Source: Rhizophagus irregularis (lineage: Eukaryota > Glomeromycota > Glomeromycetes > Glomerales > Glomeraceae). Taken from it: 64,000 nt of DNA. Both the position numbers and the translations under genes were made by a program. Positions 4,396 through 45,073 of this stretch are shown in pieces. The stretch's first letter is position 1. Each line of letters opens with the position of its first letter. Location of the stretch: NCBI RefSeq assembly GCF_026210795.1, contig NC_089442.1:4554501-4618500 (forward strand). Direction: 5' to 3'. The notes under the pieces are model-generated. The model made no database searches and was not told the origin of the DNA. It saw only the letters and a list, made by a program, of their open reading frames with translations.

Positions 4396-4505
4396 TATGA
4401 AAACCCCGATTTCTCTACAGGTAAAAATCCTGAAACTCCATACTCATCACGTGACTCTGAATTCTGCATAACGCGGGCCATTTGTCGGGTGACCCTTTGG
4501 GATAT
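4396..4505 (-). repeat. Inserted repeat block replacing kinase tail exons, copy 1
   Basis: This block is less AT-rich than its surroundings. It lies between kinase tail exon 5 and the kinase 3' untranslated region and takes the place of tail exons 6 and 7. A second copy is at 8054-8172. Read on from exon 5 it encodes RVTRQMARVMQNSESRDEYG, then a GFLPVEKSGF segment. It is probably a dispersed repeat; a genome-wide search would test this. Confidence 0.55.
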
Positions 4506-4581
4506 TCTTTCTTTACCATTATTCTTATCTTCAATTAGCTTAATTTTTTTAATACTTTCGCCTAAAAAATATATATATATA

Positions 4582-4880
4582 CTAGCCGTTAACCCGTTGC
4601 TTTGCAACGGTATACATACATATAAAAAAAGCGTGACCTGCATGTAACAATTAATTCTGGCCGGAATTATGTGATCGGCGCAGAAATTTCCTTTTATGGA
4701 GTATTTGTGAAACCAAAATTCCCCTATTTTTGTGGGAAGCAAAATTTCCTTTTTGGAAGTTGGTGTAACGTCACGTGATAAAGTGCCCAATAGGAGCGAT
4801 GTTACGCAATTCAAATTTATTTATACAGGGTAGTCTAAACGTTACGGTTACACACAAAAACAATTATTATATAGTATAGA
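4582..4880 (-). mobile_element. Non-autonomous Helitron, 299 bp
   Basis: Read on the minus strand the element starts TCTATACTATATAATAATTG and ends with a perfect 7-bp hairpin (CCGTTGC-AAA-GCAACGG), nine bases, then CTAG. It is flanked by A on the 5' side and T on the 3' side, with no target duplication. TC start, 3' hairpin, CTRR end and A|T insertion are the diagnostic features of Helitrons. The paralogous site at 8230-8270 lacks the insert and has only an (AT)n run between the same flanks, so this is a real insertion. No Rep-helicase is encoded. Confidence 0.85.
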
Positions 4881-6041
4881 TATAGATATAGATATAGATA
4901 TAGATATATTTATTTAAATGAGTAAATATTGGCTTCTTCAACATGATAAAAATTTCTTTGCCGTACCATTGTCAAAGTTATTTTCAGATTGATTATTATC
5001 TTCAAATTTTTGGTCTTAAAAAAAAAAAAATTATAAAATTTGTTAATGATGATTCAAACGAAATAAAAAGTTTATAATCAAATAAACAAATAATTACTAT
5101 TAGAACTTCTTTGATGATCTGAATTCTGAAAATTGAATGAAAAGTTAAAATAATTTAAATTATATTATGAAAAAATACAATGTAAATTACAAATTATACA
5201 CCTTCTGAAGTAATAGATTACTTTTTAAACTTCTTGTAGAAGCTGCAGATTTTATCATATCGCTTAAATATCTACTCTTGTATACGGCACCTGGGTTATT
5301 GGTTGTTACAGGTCCAATATCTGATGATTTAATAATTTTAGTTTGATCCACATTTCCATTATAATTTATATCCCGAATTACTCTTTTTACTCAGCTGCTG
5401 TTGGTCTTATTTCCGGATCAGGATGCCGGCACTTTTTCATTAAATTAATAAAACCCCTAGGCGCATTTGTAATAATTGGTGGACGTAAACCATCACATAT
5501 TTCAATTATAAGTTCTGTATTATGATTTATTTCAAAAAGGTCTTCTTCCTACCACATAATCATTCCAAAACTATATATATATCTGATGCTTTGGTATACT
5601 TTTTTCCTTGTAAAACCTCCGGTGTAACATAAGGAATTATGCCATAAATGTTGTCTTCTTCATTATCATTGTTATCGTCATTTTCTGTTGCTGATTTACT
5701 TGTTCCTAAATCACATATTTTTGCTATATCATAAAAAATGTCTAAAAGTATATTTCCACTATGTAAATCTCGATGTATAATATTTACGTCATGAATTTTA
5801 GTGTCCTTTTATAATATCATGCAACATACGTATCTTATCATACCAACTAATATTATAAAAATCTTTAGTTATATAATGCGTCAAATCCGAATTATAATAT
5901 GGCATAACAAATATAAGATCTTGAGTGGATAGTAGGGTCTTGAGTAATACCATAATATACATTAACAAAATCAAACTTCGCATCAATAGATTTATTTTTT
6001 TCCCGATTTGAAGAATAATGATAAAACATCTTAAGCTGAAA

Positions 6042-6173
6042 CATATCGGCTGATTGGAAAAATCAAGCCAATTGATATTTAAGCTCAGTTGATGGGTTCA
6101 TTATATAACTGATGGGTTACTTATCGTCATTAGCATATAAAATTATGGGGGGCTTTTCTGATCAGCCGATATG
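6042..6173. mobile_element. MITE at the kinase A exon-2 acceptor
   Basis: A perfect 13-bp terminal inverted repeat (CATATCGGCTGAT) bounds 132 bp. Kinase B and the plus-strand kinases lack it at the same place, where the intron simply continues. It ends six bases from the splice junction and so separates the acceptor from its upstream polypyrimidine stretch. The target duplication is unclear. A sequence resembling its interior (atatttaagctcaactgatt) occurs at 27358-27377. Confidence 0.75.
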
Positions 6174-6837
6174 ATAAATAAAAATTATTGTCTCACATTT
6201 AAAGTTTATTGATAATTAATATGGAATATTTACCTCATTTAGCCCTTTAGAATTAATATTTTTAGAGTTGTTAAGCTTTTTAAGAGCAACTGTTATAGAT
6301 TTATTTTGGAGTGAATAACTTAAAGTCCCTTATATAAAATTTACAATCAATCCAAGTAGCTTTATAAATTTTACTAAAACCTTCTTCGCCAATAAGTTCT
6401 ATATTTTTGAATTTATCATAAGGAACAAATATCATTCTTCCATATTCATTACCATTAGTTAATGTATAACTAATAAAATCGTCAATAACTTTGTTTCCAC
6501 TAGGTATAAATAATTCTTTTGCTTCGTAACAAACGCCACACCAATCGTTGAATTTAAACTCTCTTTTTTTACACTTATTACAGAGCGGCAAAGTTAAAGG
6601 TCGTCAATCATAATTTCATTAATATTGTCAACAGATTTTTTTACGAATTTAAAAGTGTCGTAAAGATCCGTACAAATCTTTTTTCTTATTAAATTAATAT
6701 ATTGAGCGTGAAGTTTTTCAACCGAATTGTATTCAATTTATGATTTTATGTGATTGTATAGTATACAAATACGAATATAAAGCGCAGTAAAATTTGAAAA
6801 TTCTTTTCTTGATAGAATTTCTTGATTTTCATTAATT

Positions 6838-6873
6838 GTTTGGTGATACAACATAGAATTAAATTCTGGAAGG
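6838..6873 (-). promoter_or_regulatory. Conserved upstream block of kinase A
   Basis: On the minus strand this reads CCAGAATTTAATTCTATGTT then GTATCACC. It contains the palindrome GAATTTAATTC and lies about 250 bases before exon 1. The same block precedes kinases B (10083-10120), J (34807-34845) and K (42984-43015), and the relics at 31363-31392 and 33622-33660. Its position suggests a promoter or 5' transcript element, but no function is shown. Confidence 0.45.
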
Positions 6874-7006
6874 AAAAGAAATTCTTTACTTACGAATGTC
6901 ACAACGCAATTAATTAGTTAAAATTCCGCATCACGGGATGTACGTAAAGTAACGTGATAAAAGAATTACAACTATGCGGTATATCGAATTTCACGATAAA
7001 GCGATT

Positions 7007-7203
7007 TTTTGGTCCGACCGTGAGTCTCTGATTCACGCTCATGTTTCTTCGACAAAACTTTCTCACCAAGGTGGCATCGCCCAGTTCCGAAAGGGCTGAT
7101 CGCGATTTGGTCTTCAGTTGTTGGAATTGCTTTCGGTCTTAGCGTATAGGATCTTTGTAATTTTTACTGTAACTTTGTTCACTTTGAGAAATAAAAATAA
7201 AAA
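7007..7203 (+). mobile_element. Retroposed SINE-like element, copy 1
   Basis: A block of about 197 bp of higher GC ends in an A-rich tail (gagaaataaaaataaaa). It is flanked by a 14-bp direct repeat, acgataaagcgatt, at 6993-7006 and 7204-7217. The equivalent site at 3483-3500 has one copy of that sequence and no insert. Target duplication plus A-rich tail point to target-primed reverse transcription. No open frame or clear pol III boxes were seen, so it could be a SINE or a short LINE 3' end. Confidence 0.75.
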
Positions 7204-7217
7204 ACGATAAAGCGATT

Positions 7218-7970
7218 ATAAAAATCGTTATGTCAAACTTATAAATTTTGATATAACGATTTTTTTCATTAACCGAAAGGTTTGTTATATCGAGTTCTGA
7301 CTGTACAGTAGTATTTTGAAACCCCCTTTACTTCAGTAAATTCTTTTGTTTATTAAGAATTTAAATCGAAAATTATATAAATACAAAAAAAAATTCGATT
7401 TAAAAAATTATTAAATTAACATGATTATACATTATCAAAACGTTATCGAAAACAAAATTGACAAATAAGTACTTTACATACATACAATACAATAATACAT
7501 TTCATACATAAATTACATACAGACATACATATAAATATATATACTTACTATATATATATATTATATATACTAATAATACAATTAAATAAATATATTATAA
7601 TCAATCCTTCGTTAACGCTTTTTAGAATAATAATAAATTAAGTATTTCGAACAATTTTTTTTAAAGATTTTCTTTTTTCAACATTTTTCTTTGCACAAAT
7701 CCTAAATACCATATCATAACCATTATAATGATTCAATTCTTCAAAAGCTTTATTCGACTTTTAATTATATTCTTAAGAATATAAGAAGACACTAAATGAT
7801 ATAAATTTTTTGTAGCCTATTTAAAATTTCCAAATAAAGGATTCCTAATCTACCTCCCCATTCTCCAATTTATCCTCTAAAATGAATATCAGATATTATT
7901 ATCTAAACATATTCTAATAATTGAACTTGACATCATATTTATATCTTTTAATTCGTATATATTGATTACC
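7218..7970 (-). pseudogene. Methyltransferase 3' fragment, copy 2
   Basis: Bases about 7625-7950 are a second decayed copy of the last methyltransferase exon. They share with copy 1 the loss of the EDKQCPIGEW region and the shifted frame near the EEEYN segment, so copies 1 and 2 descend from one already damaged fragment. Near 7965 the fragment joins the kinase B 3' region at the same junction as in copy 1 and in the plus-strand copy behind kinase E. Confidence 0.75.
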
Positions 7971-8053
7971 AATATCTTACATATAGCTAATCTTCAAATA
8001 ATATAACAAAGAAAATAATAATAATAATATAACTAATAATAAAAAAAAACAAG

Positions 8054-8172
8054 TATGAAAACCCCGATTTCTCTACAGGTAAAAATCCTGAAACTCTAAT
8101 GCTGGTCATACTCATCACGTGACTCTGAATTCTGCATAACGCGGGCCATTTGACGGGTGACCCTTCGGGATA
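8054..8172 (-). repeat. Inserted repeat block in the kinase B tail, copy 2
   Basis: This is homologous to 4396-4505, with an extra ten bases that complete a DQH-stop ending. It supplies the C-terminus of kinase B after tail exon 5 and is followed by the ancestral kinase 3' untranslated sequence (tatattatttgaa... then gctatatgtaagatattgg). Confidence 0.55.
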
Positions 8173-9813
8173 TCCTTTCTTTACCATTATTCTTATCTTC
8201 AATTAGTTTAATTTTTTTAATACTTTCGCCTAAAATATATATATATATATATATATATATTTAAATGAGTAAATATTGGCTTCTTCATCATAATAAAAAT
8301 TTTCTTTACCGTACCATTGTCAAAGTTATTTTCAGATTGATTATTATCTTCAAATTTTCGGGATTTTCTTTTGTCTTTAAAAAAAAAATTATAAAATTTG
8401 TTAATGATGATTCAAACGAAATAAAAAGTTCATAATCAAATAAACAAATAATTACTATTAGAACTTCTTTGGTGATCTGAAAATTGAATGAAAAGTTAAA
8501 TTATATTATGAAAAAATACAATGTAAATTACAAATTATTTACCTTCTGAAGTAATAGATTTGCTTCTTAAACTTCTTGTGGAAGCTGCAGATTTTATCAT
8601 ATCACTTAAATATCTACTCTTATATATGGCACCTGGGTTATTGGTTGTTACAGGTCCAATATCTGATGATTTAATAATTTCAATTTGATTCACATTTCCA
8701 TTATAAATTATATCATGAATTACTTTTTTTACTTCAGCTGCGGTTGGTCTTATTTCCGGATCAGGATGCCAGCACTTTTTCATTAAATTAATAAAACCCC
8801 TAGGCGCATTTGTAATAATTGGTGGACGTAAACCATCACATATTTCAATTATAAGTTCTGTATTATGATTTCTATCCCAAAAAGGTTTTCTTCCTACCAT
8901 TACTTCCCACATAATCATTCCAAAACTATATATATCTGATGCTTTAGTATAATTTTTTCTTTGTAAAACCTCTGGCGCAACATAAGGAATTATGCCATAA
9001 ATGTCCTCTTCATTATCTGTTAATTCAATTGCTGATTTACTTGTTCCTAAATCACATATTTTAATTCCATTAATCGCTGTTAGAAGTATGTTTCCACTAT
9101 GTAAATCTCGATGTACAATATTTTCATCATGAATGTTGACAAGTCCATTTATAATGTCTTCCAAATAATCTATCTTCCAATTCCAACTATTAATATAAAA
9201 ACATTTAGTCATTTTATACGTCAAATCACATTTATAATATGGCATAATAAATATAAGATCTTGAGTAGTAGGATCTTGAGTAATACCATAATATATATTA
9301 ACGTATTTATCATATGATTTTTTCCTATTTGAAGAATAATGAAAAAATATTTTGAGCTGAAATAAAATTTTATTGGATTAGATTTTTTGTCTCAAATTTT
9401 AAAATCTATTAATGAATTCAACATAAAATATTTACCTCATTTAGCTCTTTAGAAGTAATATTTTTAGAATTTTTAAGCTTTTTAAGAGCAACTATTTCAG
9501 ACTCATCCTGTTGGGAATAATCTAGAACATCCCCCCACGAAATTTTAGAATCAATCCAAGTAGCTTTATAAATTCTACTAAAACCTCCTTCACCAATAAG
9601 TTCTATATTTTTGAAATTATCATAAGGAACAAACATCATTCTCCCATATTTAGTACTATTATCTAATGTATAATTAATAAAATCGTCAATAACTTTGTTT
9701 CCACTAGGTATAAATAATTCTTTTACTCTGTGACAAGCGTCACACGCATCGTTGGAATCAATTCTTGTTTTACACACAATACAAGGTGAAAAACTAGAAA
9801 GTTCGTCAGTCAT
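8096..9813 (-). CDS. Zinc-ribbon TKL protein kinase B with a repeat-derived C-terminus
   Basis: Predicted Ser/Thr-type kinase of the TKL group, probably soluble and signalling. Model exons are 9813-9436, 9356-8543, 8476-8456, 8374-8315 and 8229-8096, giving 468 aa in an open frame. The N-terminus has a Cys4 motif (CIVC, nine residues, CDAC), then IPSGNKVIDDFI. The kinase domain follows: GEGGFSRIY glycine loop, VALKK lysine, HRDLHSGN catalytic loop, CDLG metal site (DLG instead of DFG), APE, and SFGMIMWE in helix F. Intron 1 (79 nt, phase 0) splits helix C. The tail exons are joined in phase 1. The last exon runs without splicing into the inserted repeat block, so the protein ends in a basic RVTRQMARVM segment instead of the usual EYITREIGFDI tail. 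All catalytic residues look intact. Expression and the tail splicing are inferred. Confidence 0.75.
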
Positions 9814-10082
9814 GATTTCATTAATATTGTCGGAAGATTTTTTCAGTAAAAAATTTAAAGAGTCGTAAAGATCCTTACAAATCTTTTTTTTTCTTATTAA
9901 ATCAACAGTTTTTAATTTATTGAATGTGAAATTTTTCAGAATTCTGTATTCTTATATGCAAATTCCGATATATATTTTGATAAGCGATTGTATATACAAA
10001 TATGTACTTATGAAATATAGAGTTTTGAAAATTCTTTTCTCGATAGAATTTCTTAATTAGTAATGAAAAACCCAATTATTCA

Positions 10083-10120
10083 TTATTTGTTTGGTGATAC
10101 AGAATAGAATTAAGTTCTGG
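10083..10120 (-). promoter_or_regulatory. Conserved upstream block of kinase B
   Basis: On the minus strand it reads CCAGAACTTAATTCTATTCT then GTATCACC, about 280 bases upstream of the kinase B ATG. It corresponds to the block described at kinase A, and one half of the GAATTTAATTC palindrome is changed. Confidence 0.4.
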
Positions 10121-10278
10121 AAGGGAAAGAAATTCTTTTTTTTAATGATTTACTTATGAATGTCATAAGGCGTATCGGAGTATCAAAAGCGCAATTGAAT
10201 TAGTTAAAATTCCGCATCACGGGATATACGTAAAATAACGTGACGTCTATGTGGTTAACGAATTTCACGATAAAGCGA

Positions 10279-10477
10279 ATTTTTAATCGACCGTGAGTTT
10301 CTGAATTACGCTCGTGCTTCTTCGACAAAACTTTCTCACCAAGGTGGCATCGCCTCAGTTCCGAAAGGGCTGGTCGCGATTTGGTTTTCAGTTGTTGGAA
10401 TTGCTTTCGGTCTTAGCGTATAGGATCTTTGTAATTTTTACTGTAACTTTGTTTATCTTGAGAAATAAAAATAAAAA
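10279..10477 (+). mobile_element. Retroposed SINE-like element, copy 2
   Basis: Same element as at 7007-7203, also A-tailed and flanked by acgataaagcga (10267-10278 and 10478-10489). Copies 1 and 2 occupy homologous positions, so the insertion came before the duplication of this unit, while the unit at 3.5 kb represents the empty site. Confidence 0.75.
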
Positions 10478-10941
10478 ACGATAAAGCGATTTTTTTAAAA
10501 TTTCATCTTTATATATGAACATATAAAAATCGGTATATCAAACTTATAAATTTTGATATGACGATTTTTTTTCATTGAACCCAAATTCGCTCTGACTGTA
10601 CAGTAATATTCTTTGAAACCCCCCCCCCCTTTACTTTAATTCAATTTCAGTAAATTCTTTTATTTATTAAGAATTTAAATCGAAAATTACATAAATACAA
10701 AAAAAATTCGATTTAAAAAATTATTAAATTAACATGATTATACATTATCAAAAACGTTATCGAAAACAAAATTGATAAAATAAGTACTTTACATACATAC
10801 AATACAAATAATACATTTCATACATAAATTACATACATACATACATATAAATATATATACTATATATATATTATATATACTAATAATACAATTAAATAAA
10901 TAAATAAATAATCAAAATCCTTCGTTAACGCTAATAATAAA

Positions 10942-16502: not shown

Positions 16503-18519
16503 ATGGAAAAATCAACTAATATTAAACATAAAATTGATTTTTTATTATCAAATGACGCTCTTTCAAGTAATCAAACACAAAAAACAATTAAAATAAAAAA
16601 GAAATATGACGTACTTTCTTCAAGTCACCAAATACAAAAAACTTTTAAAATAAAAAAGAAATGTAGTGAATGTAATAAAATAAGAACTCCTTCAGATGAA
16701 AATAATCAAATTTGTTATACTTGTAACAAAGCAAAAAAAAGAATTATACCAAGTGGAAATAAAGTTATTGATGATTTTATTAAATATACTCAAACTAATT
16801 GCGCTCAACGTATTGGAAGAATGATGTTTGTTCCTTATGAAAAATTTAGAAATATAAAACTTATTGGTGAAGGAGGTTTTAGTAAAATTTATAAAGCTAC
16901 TTGGATTGATTCTAAAATTTCTGAAGAGGGTATTCTAAATTATTATTTACAAAATGAATCTAAAACAGTTGCTCTTAAAAAGATTAACAACTCAAAAAAT
17001 ATTACTTCTAAGGAGTTAACTGAGGTAAATTTTTTATAATATATTAATTTTATTTTAAAATGCGTGACAAATAATTTAAACAATAATTTTTTTTTTTTAT
17101 TTCAGCTCAAATTGTTTTATCTTTATTCTTTAAATGTGACAAAACCTAATATTTACGGTTTTCATAATTATATTAATGTATATTATGGTCTTACTCAAGA
17201 TCCTTTAACTCAAGATCTTATATTTATTATGCCATATTATAATTCAGACTTGTCACATTATATAATTAAAGATTTTTTTAATATTAATTGGTATCATAAG
17301 TTAAATAGATTAAAAGAGATTATAAATAGTCTTAATGAAATTCATGAAGTAGATATTATTCATCGAGATTTACATAGTGGAAATATACTTATAGATGAGA
17401 ATATTTTGACTAAAAAGAATCTAGCAAAATTATGTGATATAGGAATAAGTAAATCAGCAACAGAACATGATCTTAGTAATGATAATGAAGAAAACAACAT
17501 TTATGGTATAATTCCTTATGTTGCACCAGAAGTTTTACGAGGAAAAAATTATACCAAAGCTTCAGATGTATATAGTTTTGGAATGATTATGTGGGAGTTA
17601 ATGGTAGGAAGAAGACCTTTTTGGGATAGAAATCATAATACAGAATTAATAATTGAAATAAGTGATGGTTTACGTCCACCGATTATTACAAATGCACCTA
17701 AAGGTTATATTGATTTAATGAAAGAATGTTGGCATTCTGATCCTAAAAAAAGACCAAAAACAGTTGAAATATTAAAAAAAATTGATGAAGTACTTGTTAA
17801 TGAACAGGAAAATAAGACTGAAATTATAGAATCATCAGATATTGGTCCCGTAACAACAAATAATCCTGATGCCATATATAAGAGTAGATATTTAAGTGGT
17901 ATGATAAAATCTGCTGCTTCTAAAAGAAGTTTAAAAAGTCAATCTATTACTTCAAAACTTGGTAAATATTTGTAATATTAATTACAGTATATTTTTATTG
18001 ATTATTATAACAATTATATTAATTTTACCTTTCGTTCAATTATTTAGATCAATTTGATCCTAACAGTAATTATTAGTTTTACTTGATATAACATTTTTAT
18101 TCGTTTTAATTATGTTGTTATTGTTATTATTAACGAATTATATTTTCTTTTTTTTTGAAGATAAAAGAAATTTTGACGACAATCAATTAAGTAGCTTTGA
18201 TAATTGCATGGTAAAATAATTACAAATTACATTTTGATAAAGAAACCACTATTTTATATTAAAAGATATTTTTTTTTTAGGAAAAAGTATTAAAAAGAAT
18301 AAAACTAAATGAAGACGAAAATAATGGTAAATTATAATTGTTTTTTTTTTTAATGCATACATCATAAATTGATACCATTATACATTTTGTTTTTTTTTTA
18401 TTTAGATTTATACGTTACGAAAAGAAATTGAATATAAATTTTTAATGATGATGATGGTTACCATATTTTATTATTTTTATTTAGATTACGTTACGAAAGA
18501 ATTTGAATATAAATTTTAA
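16503..18519 (+). CDS. Zinc-ribbon TKL protein kinase C
   Basis: This copy belongs to the second subfamily, starting MEKSTNIKHKIDFLLSND. Exons 16503-17024 and 17106-17961 carry the Cys4 motif (CSEC, twelve residues, CYTC), IPSGNKVIDDFI and the kinase domain, with VALKK, HRDLHSGN, CDIG, APE and SFGMIMWE. Tail exons 18048-18065, 18161-18210, 18281-18326 and 18485-18519 keep an open frame, for 508 aa in total. Tail exons 4 and 5 have compensating length changes: exon 4 ends in phase 0 and exon 5 is one base longer. Exon 6 is duplicated (18408-18475 and 18485-18519); only the second copy gives an open end, DYVTKEFEYKF. The metal-binding motif is DIG rather than DLG or DFG. A shorter version would stop at 17975 if the second intron is retained. 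Confidence 0.75.
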
Positions 18520-20672: not shown

Positions 20673-21329
20673 CCCCAATTGTTGGTGTTGCAAAAATTAC
20701 CTTCTTGACCCCTCCCCGTGTTATTTTTTTGACCCGCACATACTGTATTACATATAGGAGGGTCAAAAAAGGATGTCGTACAGCGATACAGGATCAAAGA
20801 TCTTTGTATCATAAATGGTCACATGACCTACGCGCTATCATACGTTCTGTACAAATTTTAATTAAAAAAAAACGATAATTTATTAATAATTCGCTAGTAG
20901 ATTGAATTTGGGTACACTACATAATTATGATTAAGTAAACTCTTTACAAATTGATAATATAATTATAATACAATAATTAATTTTTTCATTACCATACAAT
21001 AGAATATAGTAGTATTTGATAAAATTAGCATAATTATATAGTATCTACTAATAAACTATACTCTACGCTTCCTATAGGCTCAATTGTGAATGATTATACT
21101 CGAATCAAAGATGTAGTACTTTTTCTTTTAGTATCAAAATCAATGTACTATCGCGTAACAGCAGTAAAAAACATTAAACATATTTAAATGCAATTAATAA
21201 AACGGTTATCGTAGGTCGTTATCTAATCATTAAATTTCTTTATCAGCAGAAATTAAAAAGCTATTAATTATTAATAAACAAATTTAAAGTAACTATACGA
21301 ATGTTTAAAATTTTCTTTTTTAAATTTAA

Positions 21330-22140
21330 AGTCATCATGAAAGAATAACAAATATTAAATATAAAATTGACTTTTTATTATTTATATAATTTTCAGGTGT
21401 ATCAGGAATAGATAACGGAAAATTTTCAATATCGTTAACGATCAATAGCATCAAATGACGCACTCCAACATACACAACGACTAATCATACGCATTTTTTA
21501 TAACTTGTTATAAAGCAAAAAAGAAAAAGAAGAGAGAGAATAATAACAAGCGAAAATATAATTTTATTAATCAAGCATAAATACTCAAACTAATTATCCC
21601 AAAAAATGGTGTTTGTTCCTTATGAAAAATTCGAACTTTAAGAAGCAAATTTATTACTCCAGAACTTTGGTAAGTAATTTGTAATTTGATCATAATTTTT
21701 TCATAATATAGTATTGATGATTTTTTAATTCAATTATTAGACCTTCACCAAAGAAGTCCTAATAGCTTTATTAACTAATTAAATATACTATGAAAGTTTG
21801 AGCTTTATTTAGTAAATTATCCGTGACATAGCTCAAAAAATCAGAGCACAAATTTTAATTGGTGAAAAATCATGAATACCGTGACTTCAAATAAACAAAC
21901 TTTTTCTGGTTTTTCCATCATTCTTTTTAATCCCTTTTTTGTCTTTTCTACACCTGTTTCCAACATTTAAAAAAATACACAATAAAAACTGAAGACTAAG
22001 CTGATTGAAGACGAAAAATAATGGTAAAACAATAATTAATTTCTTTTTATTTACTAGATTACGCTACGAAAGAACTTGAACTTGATATCAATATAAATTC
22101 TAAACAATCTAACGATGGTGGAAAGCAATTATACTAGTCC
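21330..22140 (+). pseudogene. Kinase relic D with the kinase domain deleted
   Basis: The start resembles the MEKSTNIK subfamily (atcatgaaagaataacaaat). A damaged zinc-ribbon region and VFVPYEKFE follow, then the sequence jumps directly to the codons at the end of exon 2 (ctttaagaagc). The whole kinase domain from the glycine loop to the last helix is missing. Tail exons 3, 5 and 6 are recognisable near 21740, 21990 and 22060. The same deletion junction occurs in relic H at 31.9 kb. Confidence 0.7.
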
Positions 22141-22813
22141 GTTACTAATATAAAAAAAATTATGTAAAAATCATTATGCAATATATATTTTGCATTAAAA
22201 TAAAATTTTTTAGAAACATAATCAATTTTAGCGTGAGAGATCATAGAATGATCTTGTTAGTCTTTCTTAAAAAATAATGTGAACAGAGGGACCTTTAAAT
22301 ACAAAAAATTATACTTATATTTCTACGCACACACTGACAATTCGATTAAGCCAGTTTAGTAAACGTATCAGTTAATATCAGTCCAAAAATAACAATTAAA
22401 CTATCTATTTGCTTATTAATCATTAAGTAAATTATTTAGTTATATTACCAAGAGTGCGGGGCTCAGGGGATAACGTATGGTCAATATGTTCTGCATAATA
22501 ACACAGTTATTGGGAATTTCATCTAAACTGCTTCGTACATTTCAACCCCGGATGCGGATGACGTAAGCAAATCAACACGTAAAGAATTTCTTTTCCATCT
22601 TTTCCATTCTATTCTGTTTCACAAAACAAATAATTAGAAATATTTATGAGAAATCTATTAATTCTATTAAGAAAGAATTTTTAAATTTTACTGCACCCAA
22701 TATTCCACAAGTACATATTTGTATATACAATCGCTTATCAAATATATCGGAATTTGTATATAATTCGGCTGAACACTTATAAATTAAAAGTTATTAATTT
22801 AATAAGAAAAAAG

Positions 22814-24822
22814 ATGGATCTTTACGACACTTTAGATTTTTACCTAAAAAAATCTATTCGCATTCGCAATGTTAATAAAATTCTGATTGGAGAACCTTTA
22901 GGTTTCTTAGATTTTTACCTAAAAAAATCTATTCACATTCGCAATGTTAATAATATTCTGACTGACGAACCTTTAGGTTTGTCGTTCTGTATTGTGTGTA
23001 AAGTACTTGATTTCAACTGTCAGTGTGACGTTTATTATTACAGAGCAAAAGGATTATTTATACAGAGTGGAAACAAAGTTATTGACGATTTTATTAGCTA
23101 TACATTAACTAATAATACTAAAGAATATGGGAAAATGATGTTCATTCCTTATGATAAATTCAAAAATATAGAACTTATTGGTGAAGGAGGTTTTAGTAAA
23201 ATTTATAAGGCTACTTGGATTGATTGTAAACTTTATTGTTGGATTCTAAATAATTCCCTGCTAAATAATTCTGAAACAATTGCTCTTAAAAAGCTTAACA
23301 ATTCTAAAAATATTACTTCTAAAGAGCTAAATGAGGTAAATATTCCTTATTGATTTATTAATAAAGTTTAAAATGTGAGACGAATAATAATTTTTATTAA
23401 TTTCAGCTTAAGATATTTTACCATTATTCTTCGAATCGGAAAAGTGAATCTTTTTATAATTCGGTAAATGATTCTGTTAATGCATATTACGGTATTACTC
23501 AAGATCCTGTAACCCAAGATCTTATATTTATTATGCCATATTATAATTCGGATTTGACACATTATATAACTGAAAATTTTTACAGTATTGAATGGCGCCA
23601 TAAAATGATTTATTTGCAAAACGTCATAGATGGACTTGCTAAAGTTCATGATACAAATATTATACATAGAGATTTACATAGTGGAAATATACTTCTAAAT
23701 GGTCGATATGATGCAGCAAACATATGTGATTTAGGAGCAAGTAAATCAGCAACGGAAAATAACGATAATGATAATGAAGATAAAAACGTTTATGGCATAA
23801 TTCCTTATGTTGCACCAGAGGTTTTACAAGGAAAAAAATATACCAAAGCTTCAGATATATATAGTTTTGGAATGATTATGTGGGAGTTAATGGTAGGAAG
23901 AAGACCTTTTTGGGATAGAAATCATAATACAGAACTCATAATTGAAATATGTGATGGTTTACGTCCACCAATTGTTACAAATGCACCTGAAGGTTATATT
24001 GATTTAATGAAAGAATGTTGGCATTCTGATCCAAAAAAAAGACCAAAAGCAGTTGAATTATCGAATAAATTTGCGCAAATGCATCGTAATGTATGGATGA
24101 TTAAAATTATAAAATCATCAGATATTGGACCTGTAACAACAAATAATCCTAACGCCGTATATAAGAGTAGATATTTAAGTGATATGATAAAATCTGCATC
24201 TTCTACAAGAAGTTTAAGAAGCAAATCTATTACTTCAGAAGGTATTTAATTTGTAATTTTAAATGTATTTTTTCACAATGTAATTAAATTATTTTAATTA
24301 TTCTGGCCAATTTAATTTATACCAAAGAAATTCTACTGTAATAGTGATTGTTTGTTTTATTTAATATAAACTTTTTATTTCGTTTGAATTATTATTATTA
24401 AATTATATAATTTTTTTAAGATAAAAGAAAATTTGAAGATAATCAATCTGAAAATAACTTTGAAAATGGTACGGTAAAGAAAATTTTATCATTATGAAGA
24501 AATCAAATATTATTTATCTAAAAATTCTTTTTTTAGGTAAAAGTATTAAAAAGATTAAACTAATTAAATATGAAAATAATGGTAAAGAATAGTAACTTCT
24601 ATTATGCGTACTTTTTTTATAACTTATCTAATTAAAATTTACGGTATTTTTTATTTAGATTACGCTACAAGGGAACTTGAATTTGATATCGATTCCAAAC
24701 AACCTAATGATGATAGTAATAGTAAGTAAATACCGTATTAATAAATAATAATTAATTTACAATCTAATATATTTTACTTCTTTAAAGAATATATTACTAA
24801 AGAAATCGGATTTGATATTTAA
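22814..24822 (+). CDS. Zinc-ribbon TKL protein kinase E
   Basis: First-subfamily kinase. Exons 22814-23335 and 23407-24241 encode the N-terminus and an intact kinase domain (GEGGFSKIY, IALKK, HRDLHSGN, CDLG, APE, SFGMIMWE). The start at MDLYDTLDFYLKK is chosen because close relatives have the same sequence here. The N-terminus has an exact-length 25-residue tandem duplication (22832-22906 and 22907-22981). The second half of the Cys4 motif is damaged: CIVC is kept, but the partner reads CDVY. Tail exon 3 has lost its AG acceptor (ctg instead of cag near 24309). Skipping it to exons 24421-24468, 24537-24581, 24659-24721 and 24788-24822 stays in frame and gives 515 aa. Reading on instead stops at 24249. 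Confidence 0.75.
22832..22981 (+). repeat. In-frame 75-bp tandem duplication in kinase E
   Basis: Two adjacent 75-base copies encode LDFYLKKSIRIRNVNKIL and LDFYLKKSIHIRNVNNIL plus seven further residues each. The two DNA copies differ at few sites, so the duplication is recent. Confidence 0.9.
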
Positions 24823-27929: not shown

Positions 27930-28600
27930 TTTAGAATTGGCTAATTTAGTAAAGAAAAAGAATTGGGATTATACAAGTGCTTCAGACGTATATAGTTTTG
28001 GAATGATTATGTGGGAGGTAGTGACAGGAAGAAGACCTTTTGTGATAGAAATCATAATACAGAACTTATAGTTGAAATATGTGATGGATTACGACCACCA
28101 ATTATTAAAGATGCACCTGATGGTTATATTAACTTAATGAAAAAATGCTGGCATTCTGATCCAAAAAAGATGGTATATATTGGACCTATGTATAACAACA
28201 AATAATCCTGACGTCATATATAAGAGTAGATATTTGAATGGTATGATAAAATGTGCATCTACAAGAGGCTTAAGAAGCCAATCTATTTCTTCAGAGTTTG
28301 GGTAAATAGTTTACAATATTGATCTTCCTTAAATAATTTGATGTTTTAATTTCGTTCAATTATAAAGAAATTTTTATGGTTTTTAATTTTTAGGCAAAGA
28401 TTAAACTCATTGAAGAAAAAATGATGGTAAATAGTTACTTTGTTTTTTAAAAACCTACATTTTTTATGATTTGATTGGAAATTTTCTTTATTTATTAGAT
28501 TACTTTACAAAAGAACTTGAACTTGATATCGATAATTAATTATTATGATCTTATTATATTTTATATTTTTACTTTATATAGAATATATTACTAGAGAAAT
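27930..28600 (+). pseudogene. Kinase relic F, C-terminal half only
   Basis: It starts inside the C-lobe (YTSASDVYSFGMIMWEV). One base is lost in the PFWDRN motif (ccttttgtgatagaaat), so the frame shifts, and bases are missing after the RP.. segment. Tail exons 5 (near 28395), 6 (28500) and 7 (28582) are present with stops. The N-lobe and catalytic loop are absent. Confidence 0.85.
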
Positions 28601-28604
28601 CAAT

Positions 28605-29278
28605 ACTTTTTAAAGGTGTTTTGTACGTCATATTATTAAAATTTTTTTCTCTTTTTTTCTTTATAGAGGTTATAATGATTGGCATATGTGAGAAGTTGAT
28701 AAAATAAAAAATGTTGATAAGAATAATTTAATACAAAGCAGCTGTTTGCATCAAATCAATGTAATCAATCATGTAATAGTAAAGATTTTATAAAATAAGA
28801 AAGTACTAAATCAATTAAAAATTTGTGCTAAAATAATATTGTTCTAATATTGTATTTTTCGTGGGGGCTTATATTCTCCTTTCCAAATTAGTTACAGTAT
28901 ATGCTGTACCAGTGCTATACATCGAAAAATACAATGATATTTTAATCTATTGGGTATTGAGGACAATTTCGGTTATTGCACAGTAGATCAACCGTTTAAT
29001 AATGAGAAATATTAATAATTGTCAAATGCTTTATGGCTGCAATTAAGAAATTCTATCGAGAAAAGAATTCTCAAACTCTATATTTCATAAGTACGTATTT
29101 GTATATACAATCGCTTATCAAAATATATATCAGAATTTGCATATAAGAATACAGAATTCGGTTGAAAACTTCACGCTCAATAAATTAAGCTATTAATTTA
29201 ATAAGAAAAAAGATTTGTACGGATCTTTACGACTCTTTAAATTTTTTACTTAAAAAATCTGACGACAATATTAATGAA
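28605..29278. other. 5' flank of kinase G
   Basis: There is no gene. Bases 29095-29210 (tttgtatatacaatcgcttatc onward) closely match the 5' flanks of kinases E (22718-22810) and B (minus strand, about 9990-9860), so this is probably the shared promoter and 5' untranslated region of the first kinase subfamily. Confidence 0.45.
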
Positions 29279-31144
29279 ATGATGGCTAACAAATCTTTAA
29301 GTTCGCCGCTTTGTATTACGTGTAAAGCAAGAAAACTTAGGAGTAATTTGTGTTACGTTTGTAACAGAGCAAAAGAATTATTTATACCTAGTGGAAACAA
29401 AGTTATTGACGATTTTATTAGTTATACATTGACCAATAGTACTAAAAAATATGGGAATATGATATTTGTTCCATATGATAATTTCAAAAATATAGAATTT
29501 ATTGGTGAAGGAGGGTTTAGTAAAATTTATAAAGCTACTTGGATTGATTGTAAAATTTCTAATGATACTCTAAATTATTCCCTACGAAATAAATTTGAAA
29601 CAGTTGCTCTTAAAAAGCTTAACAATTCTAAAAATATTACTTCTAAAGAGCTAAATGAGGTAAATATTTCATGTTAAATTCATTAATAGTCTTAATAGAC
29701 TTCAAATTTGATACAAAAAATTTAATCCAATAAATTTTTATTTCAGCTCAAGGTGTTTTATCATTATTCTTTAAATAGGAAAAATTCATATGATAGTTAC
29801 GTTAATGTATATTATGGTATTACTCAAGATCCTACTACTCAAGATCTTATATTTATTATGCCATATTATGATTCAGATTTAACGTATTGTATAACTAAAT
29901 ATTTTTTTAAGATTAATTGGCATGGTAAGATGTCTTATTTGCAAAGCATTATAAGTGGACTTGTCAACATTCATGATGCAAATATTATACATCGAGATTT
30001 ACATAGTGGAAATATACTTGTAGATAATATACATGTAAAAATATGTGATTTAGGAACAAGTAAATCAGCAACAGAAAATGACGATAATAACAACATTTAT
30101 GGCATAATTCCTTATGTTGCACCAGAGGTTTTACAAGAAAAAAATTATACTAAAGCATCAGATATTTACAGTTTTGGAATGATCATGTGGGAGTTAATGA
30201 CAGGAAGAAGACCTTTTTGGGATAGAAATCATAATATAGAATTAATAATTGAAATATGTGATGGTTTACGTCCACCAACTATTACAAATGCACCTAAGGA
30301 TTTTATTAATTTAATGAAAAAGTGCTGGCATCCTGATCCAGAAATAAGACCAACAGCAGTTGAAGTATCAAAAGTAATTCATGATATACGTTATAATGGG
30401 AATGCGCTTCAAACTAAAATTATAAAATCATCAGATGTTGGACCTGCAACAATCCATAACCCAGGTGCCATATATAAGAGTAGATATTTAAGTAATATGA
30501 TAAAATCTGCAGCTACTACAAGAAGTTTAAGAAGCCAATCTATTACCTCGAAAGGTAAATAATTAGTAATTTACATTGTATTTTTTCATAATATCATTTT
30601 AACTTTTCGTTCAATTTTCAGACCAATTAAATTTTTACCAAAGAAATTCTAATAGTAATTGTTTGTTTATTTGACTATAAACTTTTATTTCGTTTGAATC
30701 ATCATTAACAAATTTTATAATTTTTTTTAAGACAAAAGAAAATTTGAAGATAATAATCAATCTGAAAATAACTTTGACGATGGTACGGTAAAGAAAATTT
30801 TTATCATGAATAAGAAGTCAATATTTACTCATTTAAAAATACTATATATATTTTTTAGGCGATAGTATTAAAAAGACCAAACTAACTGAAGATGAAAATA
30901 ATGGTAAAGAATAGTAAAATTTTATCATGCATACATTTTAACTTAATTAAAATTTACGGTATTTTTTCACTTAGATTACGTTACAAAAGAAATTAAATTT
31001 GATATCGATACAAATTCTAAACAACCTAATGATGAGAGTAAGTAAATATTGTATATAATAAATAATAATAATTAATTTACAACCTTCTAATATTTTTACT
31101 TCTTTATAGAATATATTACTAGAGAAATTGGGTTTGATATTTAA
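29279..31144 (+). CDS. Zinc-ribbon TKL protein kinase G, complete seven-exon model
   Basis: Best complete member of the family. Exons 29279-29659, 29747-30554, 30622-30654, 30732-30782, 30859-30903, 30975-31037 and 31110-31144 sum to 471 codons plus stop, with GT-AG borders throughout. The order is: Cys4 motif (CITC, ten residues, CYVC), IPSGNKVIDDFI, kinase N-lobe (GEGGFSKIY, VALKK), phase-0 intron in helix C, HRDLHSGN, CDLG, APE, SFGMIMWE, then CWHPDPEIRP. All tail introns are phase 1. The tail is charged and Asn-rich, and ends with two related motifs, DYVTKEIKFDI (exon 6) and YITREIGFDI (exon 7). No membrane segment is present. Predicted role: cytoplasmic signalling kinase; substrate unknown. 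Confidence 0.85.
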
Positions 31145-31602
31145 TTTACTTCGTGCTTATGTTTTTTTTATTAGTTATATTATTATTAGCAGTTATTTTT
31201 TTTCCTTTATATATTATTTGAATATTTGGCTATATCTGATATGTAAGAATTTGGCAAAATAATAGAAATAAACCAATCAATATATACGTGTAAATACTAA
31301 ACCAATCAAAAACTTGCATTACGTGTTTGATTATTCTTTAAAATAATAATTTTCTCTTCTAGAATTTAATTCAACGCTGTATCACCAGACCCGACAAATA
31401 ATGAAATACAATGAAATTTGGAGTTTTCAAATGCTTTATGACTGGATATCCAGTTATTATTCTTAAAAGAAAATTTGCTTAAAGATATTAATTTTAATAA
31501 TGAAATAGTATTTATATGAGTGTCTATAAATAAGCTAAAATTCTATCTGCTATTCTTTTTTTTTTAAAAAAAACTTAAAATATAAAACTTAAAAATATAA
31601 TC

Positions 31603-32036
31603 ATGGAAAAATCAACAAACATTAAACGTAAAACCGACTTCTTATTATCAAACGACACACTTTTAAGTCAATCAACACGAAACAAAGTTGAATTAAAATA
31701 CAAAAAAAAAGAAATGTAGTGAATGAAATAAAAAGAGAAGAACTTCAAACGAAAGTCATCAGATTTGTCATGTTTGTTACAAAGAAAAAAATGCTTACAT
31801 CGAGTGGAAACAAAGTTATTGACGATTTTATTATACTCAAATTAATCATGCTAAAAATAATGGGAAAATGGTGGTTGTTCCTTATGAAAAATTCGAAAAT
31901 GTAGAACTTTAAGAAGCCAATCTATTATTCCCAGACCCCTATTTTTCATTTAGCTTACGTTACAAGAGAACTTGAATTTGATATCGATATAAATTCTAAT
32001 GATATATTACTAGAGAATTCAATTTTGATATTTAAT
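31603..32036 (+). pseudogene. Kinase relic H with the kinase domain deleted
   Basis: It begins MEKSTNIKRKTDFLLSND-like and then shifts frame before the Cys4 motif. SGNKVIDDFI is recognisable, and after VPYEKFENVEL the sequence jumps to the last codons of exon 2 (ctttaagaagccaatc), exactly as in relic D. Pieces of tail exons 6 and 7 follow directly at 31950-32035. The kinase domain is missing. Confidence 0.75.
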
Positions 32037-32249
32037 ACTTTTTATGCAAATAATTATTCTGCAACATGGGTTTTGTCATGAGTTATAAAATAAGTAATAT
32101 AAATATGTCCCCAATACCTTAGTCAATGAAATTTTTTTTTTTTTCAATTTTTAACCTTTTTTTCGACTTGGATTATTGGATACCGGAAAGTAAAAAAAAT
32201 TGGTTCAGTTTTTTCTATATTAACGGACATTAATAACTGTTCATTTTTC

Positions 32250-32655: not shown

Positions 32656-32739
32656 ATGTTGTTTAACAATTGTAATAACTAGCTAAAACTAGAATAATAA
32701 ATGTTAAAACAATTTTAATATTTTGTTTCAATTAACATC

Positions 32740-33345
32740 GTTAGATATTATCGGACCTGTAACAACAAATAATCCTGACGCCGTATATAAAAGTATTTGA
32801 GTGGTTTGATAAAATCTGCAGCTTTTACAAGAAGTTTCAGAACTTGATTAATAGTTTGTCATATAAATTATATGTTTTTTTGATCATTATAATCATTTTA
32901 ACTTGCGTTCAATTAATTAGATCAATTTGATTTTTGCTAAAAAATTCTTAATAGTATAACATTTTTATTTCATTTAAATTATTGTTATTAACGAATTAAA
33001 TTTATTTTTAAAATAAAAGAAAGTTTGTCGATAATCAATTAAATAGCTTTGATAATGGTATTGGTAAAATAAATTTCATTATGATAAAGAAATCACTATT
33101 CATTAATATAAAAATATGACGAAAATGATGATAAATCACAATTCATGCATACCTTTTTTTTTATAAATTGATTTTTAATATACCGTATGCACTTTTTTAT
33201 TTAGATTACGTTACGATAAATTCTAAACAACCTAACGATGATGATAAGTATATCTATAATATCTATAATATTAAATCTGCAACTACTGCTGTAGCTCTAT
33301 AGAATATATTACTAGCGAAATTTATTTTGATGTTAATCCTTTTTG
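32740..33345 (+). pseudogene. Kinase tail relic I1
   Basis: It starts in the last third of exon 2 (IIGPVTTNNPDAVYKS-like) with internal losses. Recognisable tail exons 3 (32930), 4 (33015), 6 (33205) and 7 (33301) follow. No kinase domain remains. Confidence 0.75.
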
Positions 33346-33359
33346 ATTGTATTTTAAAT

Positions 33360-35066: not shown

Positions 35067-37041
35067 ATGGAAAAATCAACAGATATTAGACATAAAATAG
35101 ATTTTTTATTATTAAATGATACACAACTAACACAAAATAAATATGAAAAAAAGAAATGTAATGAATGTAATAAAGCAAGAACACTTTCACGCATAAATCA
35201 TCAAATTTGTCATATTTGTTACATAGCAAAAAGAAGAATTATACCAAGTGGAAATAAAGTTATTGATGATTTTATCAGATATACTCAAACTAATTATGTT
35301 AAAGATAACGGGAAAATGATATTTGTTCCTTATGAAAAATTCGAAAATATAGAATTTATTGGTGAAGGAGGTTTTAGTAAAATTTATAAAGCTACTTGGA
35401 TTGATTGTAAAATTTCTGATAAGGGCACTCTAGATTATTTCCTACATAATGAGTCTAAAACAGTTGCTCTCAAAAAGCTTAAAAACTCTAAAAACATTAC
35501 TTCAAAAGAGTTAAATGAGGTAAATATTCCATATAAATTTTATTAATAAACTTTAAATATACTTTAGGTTAAATCATAAACAAATAAATTTTTTATTTCA
35601 GCTTAAGATGTTTTATCATTATTCTTTAAATGGAAATAATTTAATTTACGATAGTTATTCGGGTCTTGTTAACGTATATTATGGTATTACTCAAGATCCT
35701 ATTACCCAAGATTTTATATTTATTATGCCATATTATAATTCGGATTTGACACATTATATAACTAAAGACTTTTATAATATTAGTTGGTATGATAAGATAC
35801 GTACGTTGCATGATATTATAAAAGGACTTAATAAAATTCATGACGTAAATATTATACATCGAGATTTACATAGTGGAAATATTCTTTTAAATGGTCATAG
35901 AGCAAAAATATGTGATTTAGGAACATGTAAATCGACAACTGAATTAACAGATAATGAAGAAGAGATTTATGGCATAATTCCTTATGTTGCGCCAGAGGTT
36001 TTACAAGGAAAAAAATATACCAAAGCTTCAGATATATATAGTTTTGGAATGATCATGTGGGAGTTAATGGTAGGAAGAAGACCTTTTTGGGATAGAAATC
36101 ATAACACAGAACTTATAATTGAAATATGTGATGGTTTACGTCCACCAATTATTACAAATGCACCTAAAGGTTATATTGATTTGATGAAAGAATGTTGGCA
36201 TTCTGATCCTAAAAAAAGACCAACAGCAGTTGAAATATTAAAAAAAACTGAGGAAGTACTTGTTAATGAACAGGAATATAAGACTGAAATTATAGAATCA
36301 TCAGATATTGGACCCGTAACAAGAAATAATCCTGATGCCATATTTAAGAGTAGATATTTAAGTGGTATGATAAAATCTGCAGCTTCTACAAGAAGTTTAA
36401 AAAGCCAATCTATTACTTCAAAACTTGGTAAATATTTTGTGATATTAATTGTAATTTTTTATAATATAATTTAATAATTTAATTTTCGGTCATAATTATT
36501 ATTTAGACCAATTTGACAACTACCGGAGAAACTTTAATGGTAATAATTTTTTAATATTTGATATAATTTATTTAATTATATAATTCTTAACGAATTTTAT
36601 AATTTTTTTAAGTCAAAAGAAAGTTTAACGATAACCAACTTGACAATAGTTTTGACAACGGTAAGATAATAAAATTTTATAATATATTAAATTTTAGAAA
36701 CCAATTATTTATTTAAAATCTAAGATATCTATTTAGACAAAAATATTAAAAAGATTAAAATAATCAAAGATGAAAGTATTGGTAAATTCTTTTTCGTCGT
36801 TTGTATACATTTTTTATAAATTGATTAAATTTTGACTATTCTTTTTTATTTAGATTACATTACAAAAGAACTTGAATTTGATATCGTTACAAATTCTAAC
36901 CAATCTAACGATGATGGTAAGTAAAAATTATAAATTTATAATAAATAACAACTAATATCAGATATGTACTTATAATCTAACATATTATACTTTTTCAATT
37001 ATGTAGAATATATTACTATCGAAATTGATTTTGATATTTAA
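35067..37041 (+). CDS. Zinc-ribbon TKL protein kinase J, complete seven-exon model
   Basis: Second-subfamily kinase starting MEKSTDIRHKIDFLLLND. Exons 35067-35519, 35602-36427, 36507-36539, 36613-36660, 36737-36781, 36854-36916 and 37007-37041 give 500 aa in one open frame. It has the Cys4 motif (CNEC, twelve residues, CHIC), IPSGNKVIDDFI, GEGGFSKIY, VALKK, HRDLHSGN, CDLG (followed by TCKS where relatives have TSKS), APE, SFGMIMWE and CWHSDPKKRP. The tail ends DYITKELEFDI-like (exon 6) and YITIEIDFDI (exon 7). All tail introns are phase 1. A reading that ignores the tail introns would stop at 36474. Confidence 0.85.
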
Positions 37042-41600: not shown

Positions 41601-41859
41601 TAAAGACTTGGCTAAGTCAGCAACAAATATTAACGATTTGTCCACTTTTATTAAATATATATATAACTGTAAATTAAAATAAAATTTTTTTATTTAATTT
41701 CTAATTTATAATTAATATTTTGATTATTCAATTTAAAATTTTCGCAAATGTATTATTGTCAAATGAGACAAATGCATATTGTATACAAAAGTTAATTTCA
41801 ACTTAGGTCATTTAAACTTTATTATAGCTTTTAACAATTGTAATAACTAGCTAAAACTA

Positions 41860-42330
41860 GAATAATACTGGCGCCGTATATAAAAGTAGTAGATATTTGA
41901 GTGGTTTAATAAAATCTCATATAAGTTATATGTTTTTTGATCATTATAATCATTTTTAAATTTAAATTTATTTTAAATCAATTAAATAGCTTTGAATGGT
42001 AAAATAAAATTTCATTGTGATAAAGAAATCACTATTTATTAATATAAAAATATTTTTTTAGGCAAAAATATTAAAGAATAAACTAAATGAAGACGAAAAT
42101 GATGGTAAATTACAACTGTTTTTTTTATGCATATATTGGCTTCCTTTATAAATTGGTAAAATTTTATATACTGTATACATTTTTTTTTATTTAGATTACG
42201 TTAATAATAATGGTATGATACGTAGATATATAATAATTAACAATATTTAATACAATCTAATATTTTTTTTTACTTCTTTAACTTTATAGAATATAGTACT
42301 AGCGAAATTCATTTTGATATTTAAATGTCG
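41860..42330 (+). pseudogene. Kinase tail relic I2
   Basis: Short remnants of the exon 2 end (GAVYKSRYLSGLIKS-like) are followed by parts of tail exons 4 (41965), 5 (42060), 6 (42196) and 7 (42292). It shares its left context with relic I1, so one is a copy of the other or both come from one duplicated ancestor. Confidence 0.7.
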
Positions 42331-42983
42331 TATTTATTACATAATTATAAAAGTTATTTTTCATTGGTATATTTATTGAATATTTATATGCAAGAAATTG
42401 ACAAAATTAATATCGAATCAAAAAAATTTGCATTACGCGTTCGAAATAAAAAGTAATATCAAAACAAAAAAAGTTTTGTTCCATAATTTAATTCTATACT
42501 TTATCACAATGGGAAATTTAGATTTTCAAATGTTTGTGGCTGCAATTTAGAAATCTATCAAGGAAAGATCGATAATCTTAAGGAAATTTCGATCGGAAAG
42601 ACGGAATAGAATCTTAATTTTTCCTCAAAATACCTAGAATATAAGAAAATCTTGGTAAAGTTTTTTCGTTCTTAACGTTAACGTCGTCTTATTTTATAGG
42701 CATTTGAATTATGAGTCTGGAGATAAAACTTTGGAAATTAATGTTCGAAACTTTTTCTATTACGTGAAACTATATTAAAAAACCGGTAACTTTATTATAA
42801 TTATAACATATAATTATTTTAAAAAAAATACCTTAAAGAAACTATAGCAACTATCTTTCATATAATATGCAGCTTATAAAAAATCTTAATCCTGGTATAA
42901 TTGAATTAAAGACTTGTATCCCATATTATTAAATCGATTATTTGATTAAATAAAGTGAATAAGGATTAATAAAACAATAAAGA

Positions 42984-43015
42984 ATTTCAGAATTTAATTC
43001 TATGTTGTATCACCC
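42984..43015 (+). promoter_or_regulatory. Conserved upstream block of kinase K
   Basis: Reads cagaatttaattctatgttg then tatcac, about 270 bases upstream of the start codon. It has the same GAATTTAATTC palindrome and the same following TATCAC as the other kinases. Confidence 0.45.
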
Positions 43016-43261
43016 GAAAGATAATAAGAAATACAAAGAAATTTAGGCTACTCAAATGGTGTAACTATAATCAGAAAATCTATCAAGAAGAGAGATTCGC
43101 ATTCTATAGTGACATTTTATGATTACTTAAGGAAATTTCTATCGGAAATTGCATATAATAGAATAAGAATTTGATTGAAAAAAAACTCCGGGTTTAATAA
43201 ATTGAAGGTATTTAAATGGACATTTACAACGCTCAAAATTTTTAAAAGAATTGACGTAATA

Positions 43262-45073
43262 ATGGAAAAAAAATACGTGAAATGTAGAGAATGTAATAAA
43301 ATAAGAACTTCTTCATATGAAAATCATCAAATTTGTCATATTTGTTACATAGCAAAAAGAAGAATTATACCAAGTGGAAATAAAGTTATTGATGATTTTA
43401 TCATATATACTCAAACTAATAATGAACAAGATAATGGGAAAATGATATTTGTTCCTTATGAAAATTTCAATAATATTGAACATATCGGTGAAGGAGGTTT
43501 TAGTAAAATTTATAAAGCTACTTGGATTGATTGTAAAATTTCTGATGAGGGTACTTTAGATTATACCCTACTTAATAAGTCTAAAACAGTTGCTCTTAAA
43601 AAGCTTAATGATTCTAAAGATATTACTTCAAAAGAATTAAACGAGGTAAATATTTCCATATTAATTTTATTAAATTCAAGACATATAATTTCAACTAATA
43701 AATTTTATTCAGCTCAAGATGTTTTATCATTATTCTTTAAATGGAGATAATTTAATTTACGATAGTCATTCAAGTCATGTTAACGTATATTATGGCATTA
43801 CTCAAGATCGTATTACTCAAGATCTTATTTTTATTATGCCATATTATAATTCGGATTTGACGCATTATATAATTAAAGATTTTTTTAACATTCATTGGAG
43901 TTTTAAGTTAACTATTTTAAAAAACATTATAGACGGACTTGCAGATATTCATGGTGTGAATATTATACATCGAGATTTACATAGTGGAAATATTCTTTTC
44001 AGTGATCTTAAGGCAAGACTATGTGATTTAGGAACAAGTAAATCAGCAACTGAATCAACAGATAATGAAGAAGAGATTTATGGCATAATTCCTTATGTTG
44101 CACCAGAGGTTTTACAAGGAAAAAAGTATACCAAAGCTTCAGATATATATAGTTTTGGAATGATTATGTGGGAGGTAATGGTAGGAAGAAGACCTTTTTG
44201 GGATAGAAATCATAATACAGAACTTATAATTGAAATATGTGATGGTTTACGTCCACCAATTATTACAAATGCACCCGGAGGTTATATTGATTTAATGAAA
44301 AAATGCTGGCATTCTGATCCAGTAAAGAGACCAATAGCAGATGAAATATTAAAAGAAATTACGGAAATATATCATTATGGTCATAAACCTATAATTATAA
44401 AATCATCAGATATTGGGCCTGTGACAACAAATAATCCTAAAGCCATATATAAGAGTAGATATTTAAGTGACATGATAAAATCTGCAGCTTCTACAATAAG
44501 TTTAAGAATCCAATCCGTTACTTCAGAACTTGGTAAATAACTTGAAATTTTAATTGTACATTTTTCATAATTTTTAACTTAGTTCAAATTATTTAATGGT
44601 AATAATTTTTATGTTTGGTATAATTTATTTGATTATATAATTCTTAACGAACCTTAAGTCAAAAGAAAGTTTAATGATAACCAACTTGATAATAGTATTG
44701 ATAATAGGTTTGATAATGGTATGATAATAAATTTTATATATTGTATATTGAATTTTAGAAACCAATTATTTATTAATCAAAGATATCTATTTAGGCAAAA
44801 ATATTAAAAGGATTAAAATAATCAAAGATGAAAGTATTGGTAATTACTTTTTTATTATGCATGCATTTTTTATAAAATGATTAAATTTTGATTCTTCTTA
44901 TTTAGATTACATCACAACAGAACTTGAATTTGATATCGATACAAAATCTGACCAATCTAACGATGGTAAGTAAAAATTATAAATAACAACCAATATATAA
45001 TTTATAATCTAACATATTTTACATTTTCAACTTTATAGAATATATTACTAACGAAATCGATTTTGATATTTAA
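43262..45073 (+). CDS. Zinc-ribbon TKL protein kinase K
   Basis: Second-subfamily kinase with a shortened N-terminus. The start at MEKKYVKCREC is placed by comparison with kinase J; an upstream in-frame ATG at 43175 would add 29 residues of AT-rich, unlikely sequence. Exons 43262-43645 and 43713-44532 encode the Cys4 motif (CREC, twelve residues, CHIC), IPSGNKVIDDFI and an intact kinase domain (GEGGFSKIY, VALKK, HRDLHSGN, CDLG, APE, SFGMIMWE). Tail exon 3 is mostly deleted and would give an early stop. Skipping it joins exon 4 (from about 44659) in frame, then exons 5, 6 and 7, ending YITNEIDFDI at 45073. Which tail is used cannot be seen from DNA. Confidence 0.75.

Follow-up and report, generated by a model that had tools for sequence, protein, structure and literature searches.

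Tandem duplication and decay in an array of TKL-type kinase genes in Rhizophagus irregularis

Introduction

How does a compact row of intact and broken copies of one kinase gene arise in the genome of the root-symbiotic fungus Rhizophagus irregularis, and is the cysteine-rich segment that precedes each kinase domain a peculiarity of that row? Both questions are raised by a locus on contig C14 (NC_089442.1) of R. irregularis DAOM197198, where the entire stretch analyzed here, referred to as the window, covers 64,000 nucleotides (4554501-4618500). The DAOM197198 assembly GCA_026210795.1 (Manley et al. 2023) consists of 32 scaffolds and 146,773,001 bases and contains 2,533 kinase genes (PMC10234402). 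The PF07714 kinase is the most frequent motif among the expanded genes of R. irregularis (PMC6123716), and its expanded families form occasional tandem arrays and strain-specific accessory sets, with Mutator-like elements lying near them (PMC8647823). In other words, the literature already documents for this species an expanded kinase complement, tandem arrays and copies specific to particular strains. Set within that background, the array in the window is very probably a single block within a local tandem cluster; its TKL-type subfamily, which numbers at least 108 and falls within the published expansion of ~2,500 kinases, multiplies by tandem duplication, with later decay of many copies, and the intact copies are most likely working kinases.

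Results

Between 4.9 and 44.5 kb of the window, we observed a tandem row of six apparently working copies of one kinase gene and approximately six dead ones; most of the intact copies lie ~6-8 kb apart with a relic nearby. In DNA alignments the window copies are 70-86% identical and have flanks in common, and the E-values of their matches, ranging from 0 to ~1e-20, indicate that this resemblance is not due to chance. Translation of the window confirmed a two-exon design, with both exons open, for each of the six genes originally predicted to retain open catalytic domains. These are B on the minus strand (8535..9813; exon 1 9813-9436, exon 2 9356-8535, with a 79-bp GT-AG intron and complete catalytic motifs) and, on the plus strand, C (16503..17975; exons 16503-17024 and 17106-17975; MEKSTNIK type), E (22814..24249; exons 22814-23335 and 23407-24249), G (29279..30562; exons 29279-29659 and 29747-30562), J (35067..36474; exons 35067-35519 and 35602-36474) and K (43262..44540; exons 43262-43645 and 43713-44540).

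The introns of the six genes measure 67-87 bp, read GTAAAT...TTCAG and lie in phase 0, such that exon 1 ends with KELNE (ELTE in C) directly before GTAAAT and exon 2 starts with LKxFYHYS directly after TTCAG. Exon 1 contains a four-cysteine (Cys4) motif, IPSGNKVIDDFI, an MxFVPYxxFxNIE line and the glycine loop through VALKKL, and its boundary falls exactly on the alphaC glutamate. The remaining kinase part is encoded by exon 2, together with a conserved tail, SSDIGPVTTNNPxAIYKSRYLS. All six copies retain GEGGFS, the VALK-type lysine, the alphaC glutamate, HRDLHSGN, DLG (the DIG variant in C) and APE, which agrees with the expectation that HRDLHSGN and DLG/DIG would be common to the copies; the predicted Cys4 motif is broken in one of them, E, by degradation of the second CxxC to CDVY. 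Gene E also contains, at window positions 22814-23000, an N-terminal stretch of ~33 residues (LDFYLKKSIxIRNVNxILxxEPLG) that is duplicated in tandem. With respect to kinase class, exon 2 matches Pfam PF07714 with 127.1 bits in C and 123.5 bits in B against a cut-off of 23.1, and a Pfam scan of the B, C and G exons returned no non-kinase domain above cut-off. In a PDB search, Eph (TK) and TAK1/RIPK (TKL) structures scored similarly, so that assignment to a kinase group is not sharp.

The relics were confirmed by tblastn and DNA alignment. Relic A (~4888-7126, minus strand), which is disrupted by several frameshifts and in-frame stops and has taken up a 132-bp element, is a tandem duplicate of the B unit; the A unit (~3484-7945) and the B unit (~7217-11271) are tandem units of ~3.7 kb each, flanks included. 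Window segments 3484-4581, 7217-8249 and 10478-11271 are duplicated along with these kinase units, and the third of them overlaps a methyltransferase gene region at 10945-12441. The other relics lie on the plus strand: D (21250..22209) is a decayed exon 1 fused to the 3′ end, with an internal deletion; F (27946..28641) is the frameshifted 3′ part of exon 2 plus flank; H (31338..32059) preserves the 5′ flank, a decayed exon 1 and the 3′ flank, the kinase exon having been deleted; and I (32667..33346) is the 3′ end of exon 2 plus flank. Counted with a weak remnant just upstream of K (41855..42324, plus strand), which is the 3′ flank of a lost copy and best matches C (E = 5e-44), protein and DNA comparison bears out the predicted number of about six relics.

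The 132-bp element of relic A (6042..6173, minus strand) is MITE-like, has terminal inverted repeats CATATCGGCTGAT...ATCAGCCGATATG and sits in the intron, adjoining the 3′ splice site. Genome-wide, at least 40 copies that are 95-98% identical were found on many chromosomes, so the element has been active recently. Elsewhere in the window, an arrestin-domain gene flanks the array at 47-49 kb, two open frames resembling a hAT-type transposase with a BED-like zinc finger were noted by inspection just past the array (50648-52643, minus strand), and an imperfect palindrome of ~460 bp at 20096-20558, 69% identical to its own reverse complement, is possibly a degraded inverted-repeat element.

Genome searches were made against one R. 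irregularis genome (146,748,485 bases, 32 contigs). With exon 2 of J as query, 108 matches were found at 57-100% identity and the next at no more than 49%, a drop that delimits a subfamily of no fewer than 108 genes: 34 lie on C3, 27 on C17 and 14 on C14, and the remainder are dispersed. The C14 cluster consists of two blocks within 4.560-4.799 Mb, one being the window array with six copies and the other, at 4.755-4.799 Mb, holding eight. In a tree that included, as the outgroup, nine members located elsewhere in the genome, the 14 sampled C14 copies form a single clade with support of 100/100, so the cluster expanded locally. Nested within it is a clade of B, E and G (99/95); the tree is star-like. 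In the outgroup the Cys spacer is of the longer kind and the start, MNQLTNHKHKIDFL, resembles MEKSTNIKHKIDFL; considered alongside the nesting of B, E and G, this indicates that one N-terminal type is ancestral and the other derived. Both of the types originally described were seen, but not as parallel types, since the short-spacer FIPSGNK clade of B, E and G lies within the MEKSTNIK x12 type.

Decay is evident in the second block as well, where a TGA stop takes the place of the first Cys in L020, L023 is frameshifted in the Cys region, the kinase exon of L021 contains stops, and one extra relic lies at 4.7835 Mb. Taken together, the local clade, the mixture of intact and decayed copies, and the tandem duplicates uphold the proposal of a TKL-type kinase array turning over by birth and death. 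With a dS of at least 0.17 between them, none of the window copies is very recent. Family members also disperse between chromosomes, and have done so recently, as judged from the near identity of L025 (C3:4430101) and L026 (C24:1104788) despite their location on different chromosomes. In terms of copying mode, the duplication of flanks together with genes is accounted for by plain tandem duplication. A retrocopying origin was ruled out, as the intron and flanks are retained.

Selection was assessed by pairwise counting (NG86), which is crude in AT-rich DNA. Over 13 C14 copies, dN/dS was 0.61 (0.50-0.71), with values of 0.42 (0.26-0.62) for the linker and N-lobe, 0.63 (0.50-0.77) for exon 2, and 1.08 (0.60-1.78, a wide interval) for the Cys4 stretch, the motif being broken in E, L020 and L023. 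The kinase part is thus moderately constrained, and the Cys stretch overall is not demonstrably so. For B-G the ratio was 0.87 (0.63-1.21), indistinguishable from 1. Both this value and the overall 0.61 are high for a kinase, so constraint may be relaxed in part of the array.

The Cys4-containing front of these genes extends far beyond C14. Exon 1 of B gave at least 151 matches genome-wide, and a rough first look yielded ~4,000 candidates. In 14 further loci that we read, Cys4, SGNxxID, W(I/V)PYxxF and the glycine loop follow in unchanged order and the exon ends at the alphaC glutamate, although a full Cys4 before the last lobe is absent in two (L039 and L042). Sel1 repeats are fused ahead of the module in four of the 14 (L043, L044, L047 and L048), with Sel1-repeat protein open frames of ~440 to 1,750 codons preceding the Cys4-SGN-kinase module. 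In L040, L041 and L051 (C12, C19), repeated CxxC...CxxC units precede the usual Cys4-SGN module, in frames of up to ~840 codons. A query from a distant member on C2 gave at least 150 matches on most chromosomes (150 of 150 scored), the weakest among the matches listed having E = 2e-28, and nearly all span the full query including the Cys motif. The original prediction had singled out the coupling of Cys4 to kinase as the noteworthy feature of the array, and this claim is not supported, given that Cys4, SGNxxID and the N-lobe exon with an identical splice site recur genome-wide. Within this genome the N-terminal region is an ordinary one: most of the distant and Sel1-fused kinases that we read share it, which, along with the matches on most chromosomes, identifies it as the usual N-terminal part of kinases in the R. 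irregularis TKL expansion.

The same exon also occurs in serial form. In L055 (C14:4775511-4780898, minus strand; block 2), eight exons each terminate at the alphaC glutamate, and seven of them start with alphaC-beta4-beta5, followed by Cys4, SGNxxID and beta1-beta3; one C-lobe exon comes after all of these. A genome query with one such exon gave at least 150 matches, 143 of which extend into the alphaC-beta4-beta5 part, so poly-N-lobe exons number at least 143, in ~83 clusters of up to eight units. Across the six loci that were read (L055 and L059-L063), the Cys4 motif is present in 36 of 37 units, and dN/dS among units is 0.40-0.75, with an upper bound below 1 in five of the six. In the four genes seen with a C-lobe (C14, C5, C15 and C6), an intact glycine loop (GKGGFA) occurs only in the last unit, the earlier units having KDEFSTIYS or similar instead; the C24 locus has GKGG in two units and may be two genes. 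From their sequences, the poly-N-lobe genes look like a kinase class with many pseudo-N-lobes, and because their exons are in phase 0 at both ends, use as alternative exons is possible. We found no description in the open-access literature of poly-N-lobe kinases, nor of a zinc-ribbon kinase in Rhizophagus.

Discussion

Our observations show growth of the array by tandem duplication, in which a segment containing the gene, its intron and its flanks is copied, and many copies then decay by frameshift, deletion or insertion of a small element. The alternative that the array is mostly neutral churn, with copies appearing and decaying without function, draws on the death of about half of the copies, on the overall dN/dS of 0.6 and on the B-G value close to 1. 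We regard it as unlikely, since six complete two-exon frames retain all catalytic motifs and both the linker plus N-lobe and exon 2 have intervals below 1. Frequent gene conversion, which would keep copies alike or mosaic in place of independent birth and death, might be read from the star-like, poorly resolved tree and from one long run of shared silent sites between E and L012, the best result of a converted-tract test (p = 0.010). That run was judged before correction for 78 pairs; none of the 78 was significant afterward, and the copies diverge by 14-30% in DNA, which renders this explanation distinctly improbable.

The same divergence is not expected of falsely duplicated contigs, and hence an assembly artefact, which the repetitive region in a repeat-rich genome might otherwise bring to mind, can be set aside with near certainty. 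There is also very little to recommend the idea that the array itself innovated by coupling the Cys4 segment to a kinase. In its favor, no Pfam family covers the Cys4/SGNxxID segment above cut-off, no relatives were found in viral contigs, and in prokaryote contigs the only match was a 25-residue stretch of glycine loop in an archaeal MAG that does not reach the Cys4/SGN segment. Nonetheless, the segment, usually with four Cys and the identical splice site, precedes distant and Sel1-fused kinases, and on most chromosomes the distant query gave at least 150 matches, 150 of 150 scored and nearly all of them full-length.

Returning to duplication and decay as the preferred explanation, retention of every catalytic residue together with moderate purifying selection suggests that the intact copies most likely act as intracellular kinases, and they could serve in diversified signalling or recognition. 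The Cys4 and SGNxxID segment probably serves as a metal-binding cap through which the kinase would be regulated or paired: its two-CxxC motif would bind metal, and the segment would either cap the N-lobe or provide a pairing surface. AlphaFold gave exon 1 a mean pLDDT of 43 from six sequences only. More tentatively, and as a reading of gene structures that we put somewhat below even chances, the Cys4-SGN-N-lobe exon may represent a regulatory module, so far undescribed, in the kinases of arbuscular mycorrhizal fungi. It would duplicate as a symmetric phase-0 unit and, besides single-lobe arrays, would have given rise to kinases in which as many as eight N-lobes accompany one C-lobe, the extra lobes not binding ATP and acting as pairing or decoy parts.

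The locus thus displays, at the level of single bases, the growth and decay of a single branch within the kinase expansion of R. irregularis. The wider gain is an expansion-wide N-terminal module outside Pfam, of which some relatives carry as many as eight repeats; this offers a concrete handle on possible roles of thousands of R. irregularis kinases.

With respect to known systems, animal TKL kinases (structures of RIPK1/RIPK4, MLK and TAK1) have a kinase fold that is alike by sequence (E ~1e-26), with MLK4 closest to the array genes in the glycine-loop region, but none matches their Cys4/SGN part. Plant tandem kinase proteins of the kinase-pseudokinase kind, such as Yr15 and Pm24, resemble only the poly-N-lobe relatives, in that degenerate and intact kinase parts are paired; they repeat whole kinase domains (PMC6170490, PMC6997164), whereas the poly-N-lobe genes repeat only the N-lobe and Cys4 module. 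The closest likeness is within R. irregularis itself, whose TKL/PF07714 kinases, Sel1 fusions included, share with the array the kinase domain, the Cys4 and SGNxxID front and the intron position. As in the array, these expanded kinases occur as tandem and dispersed copies and show no difference in kind; the B/E/G sub-clade differs from them in its shortened Cys spacer and altered start.
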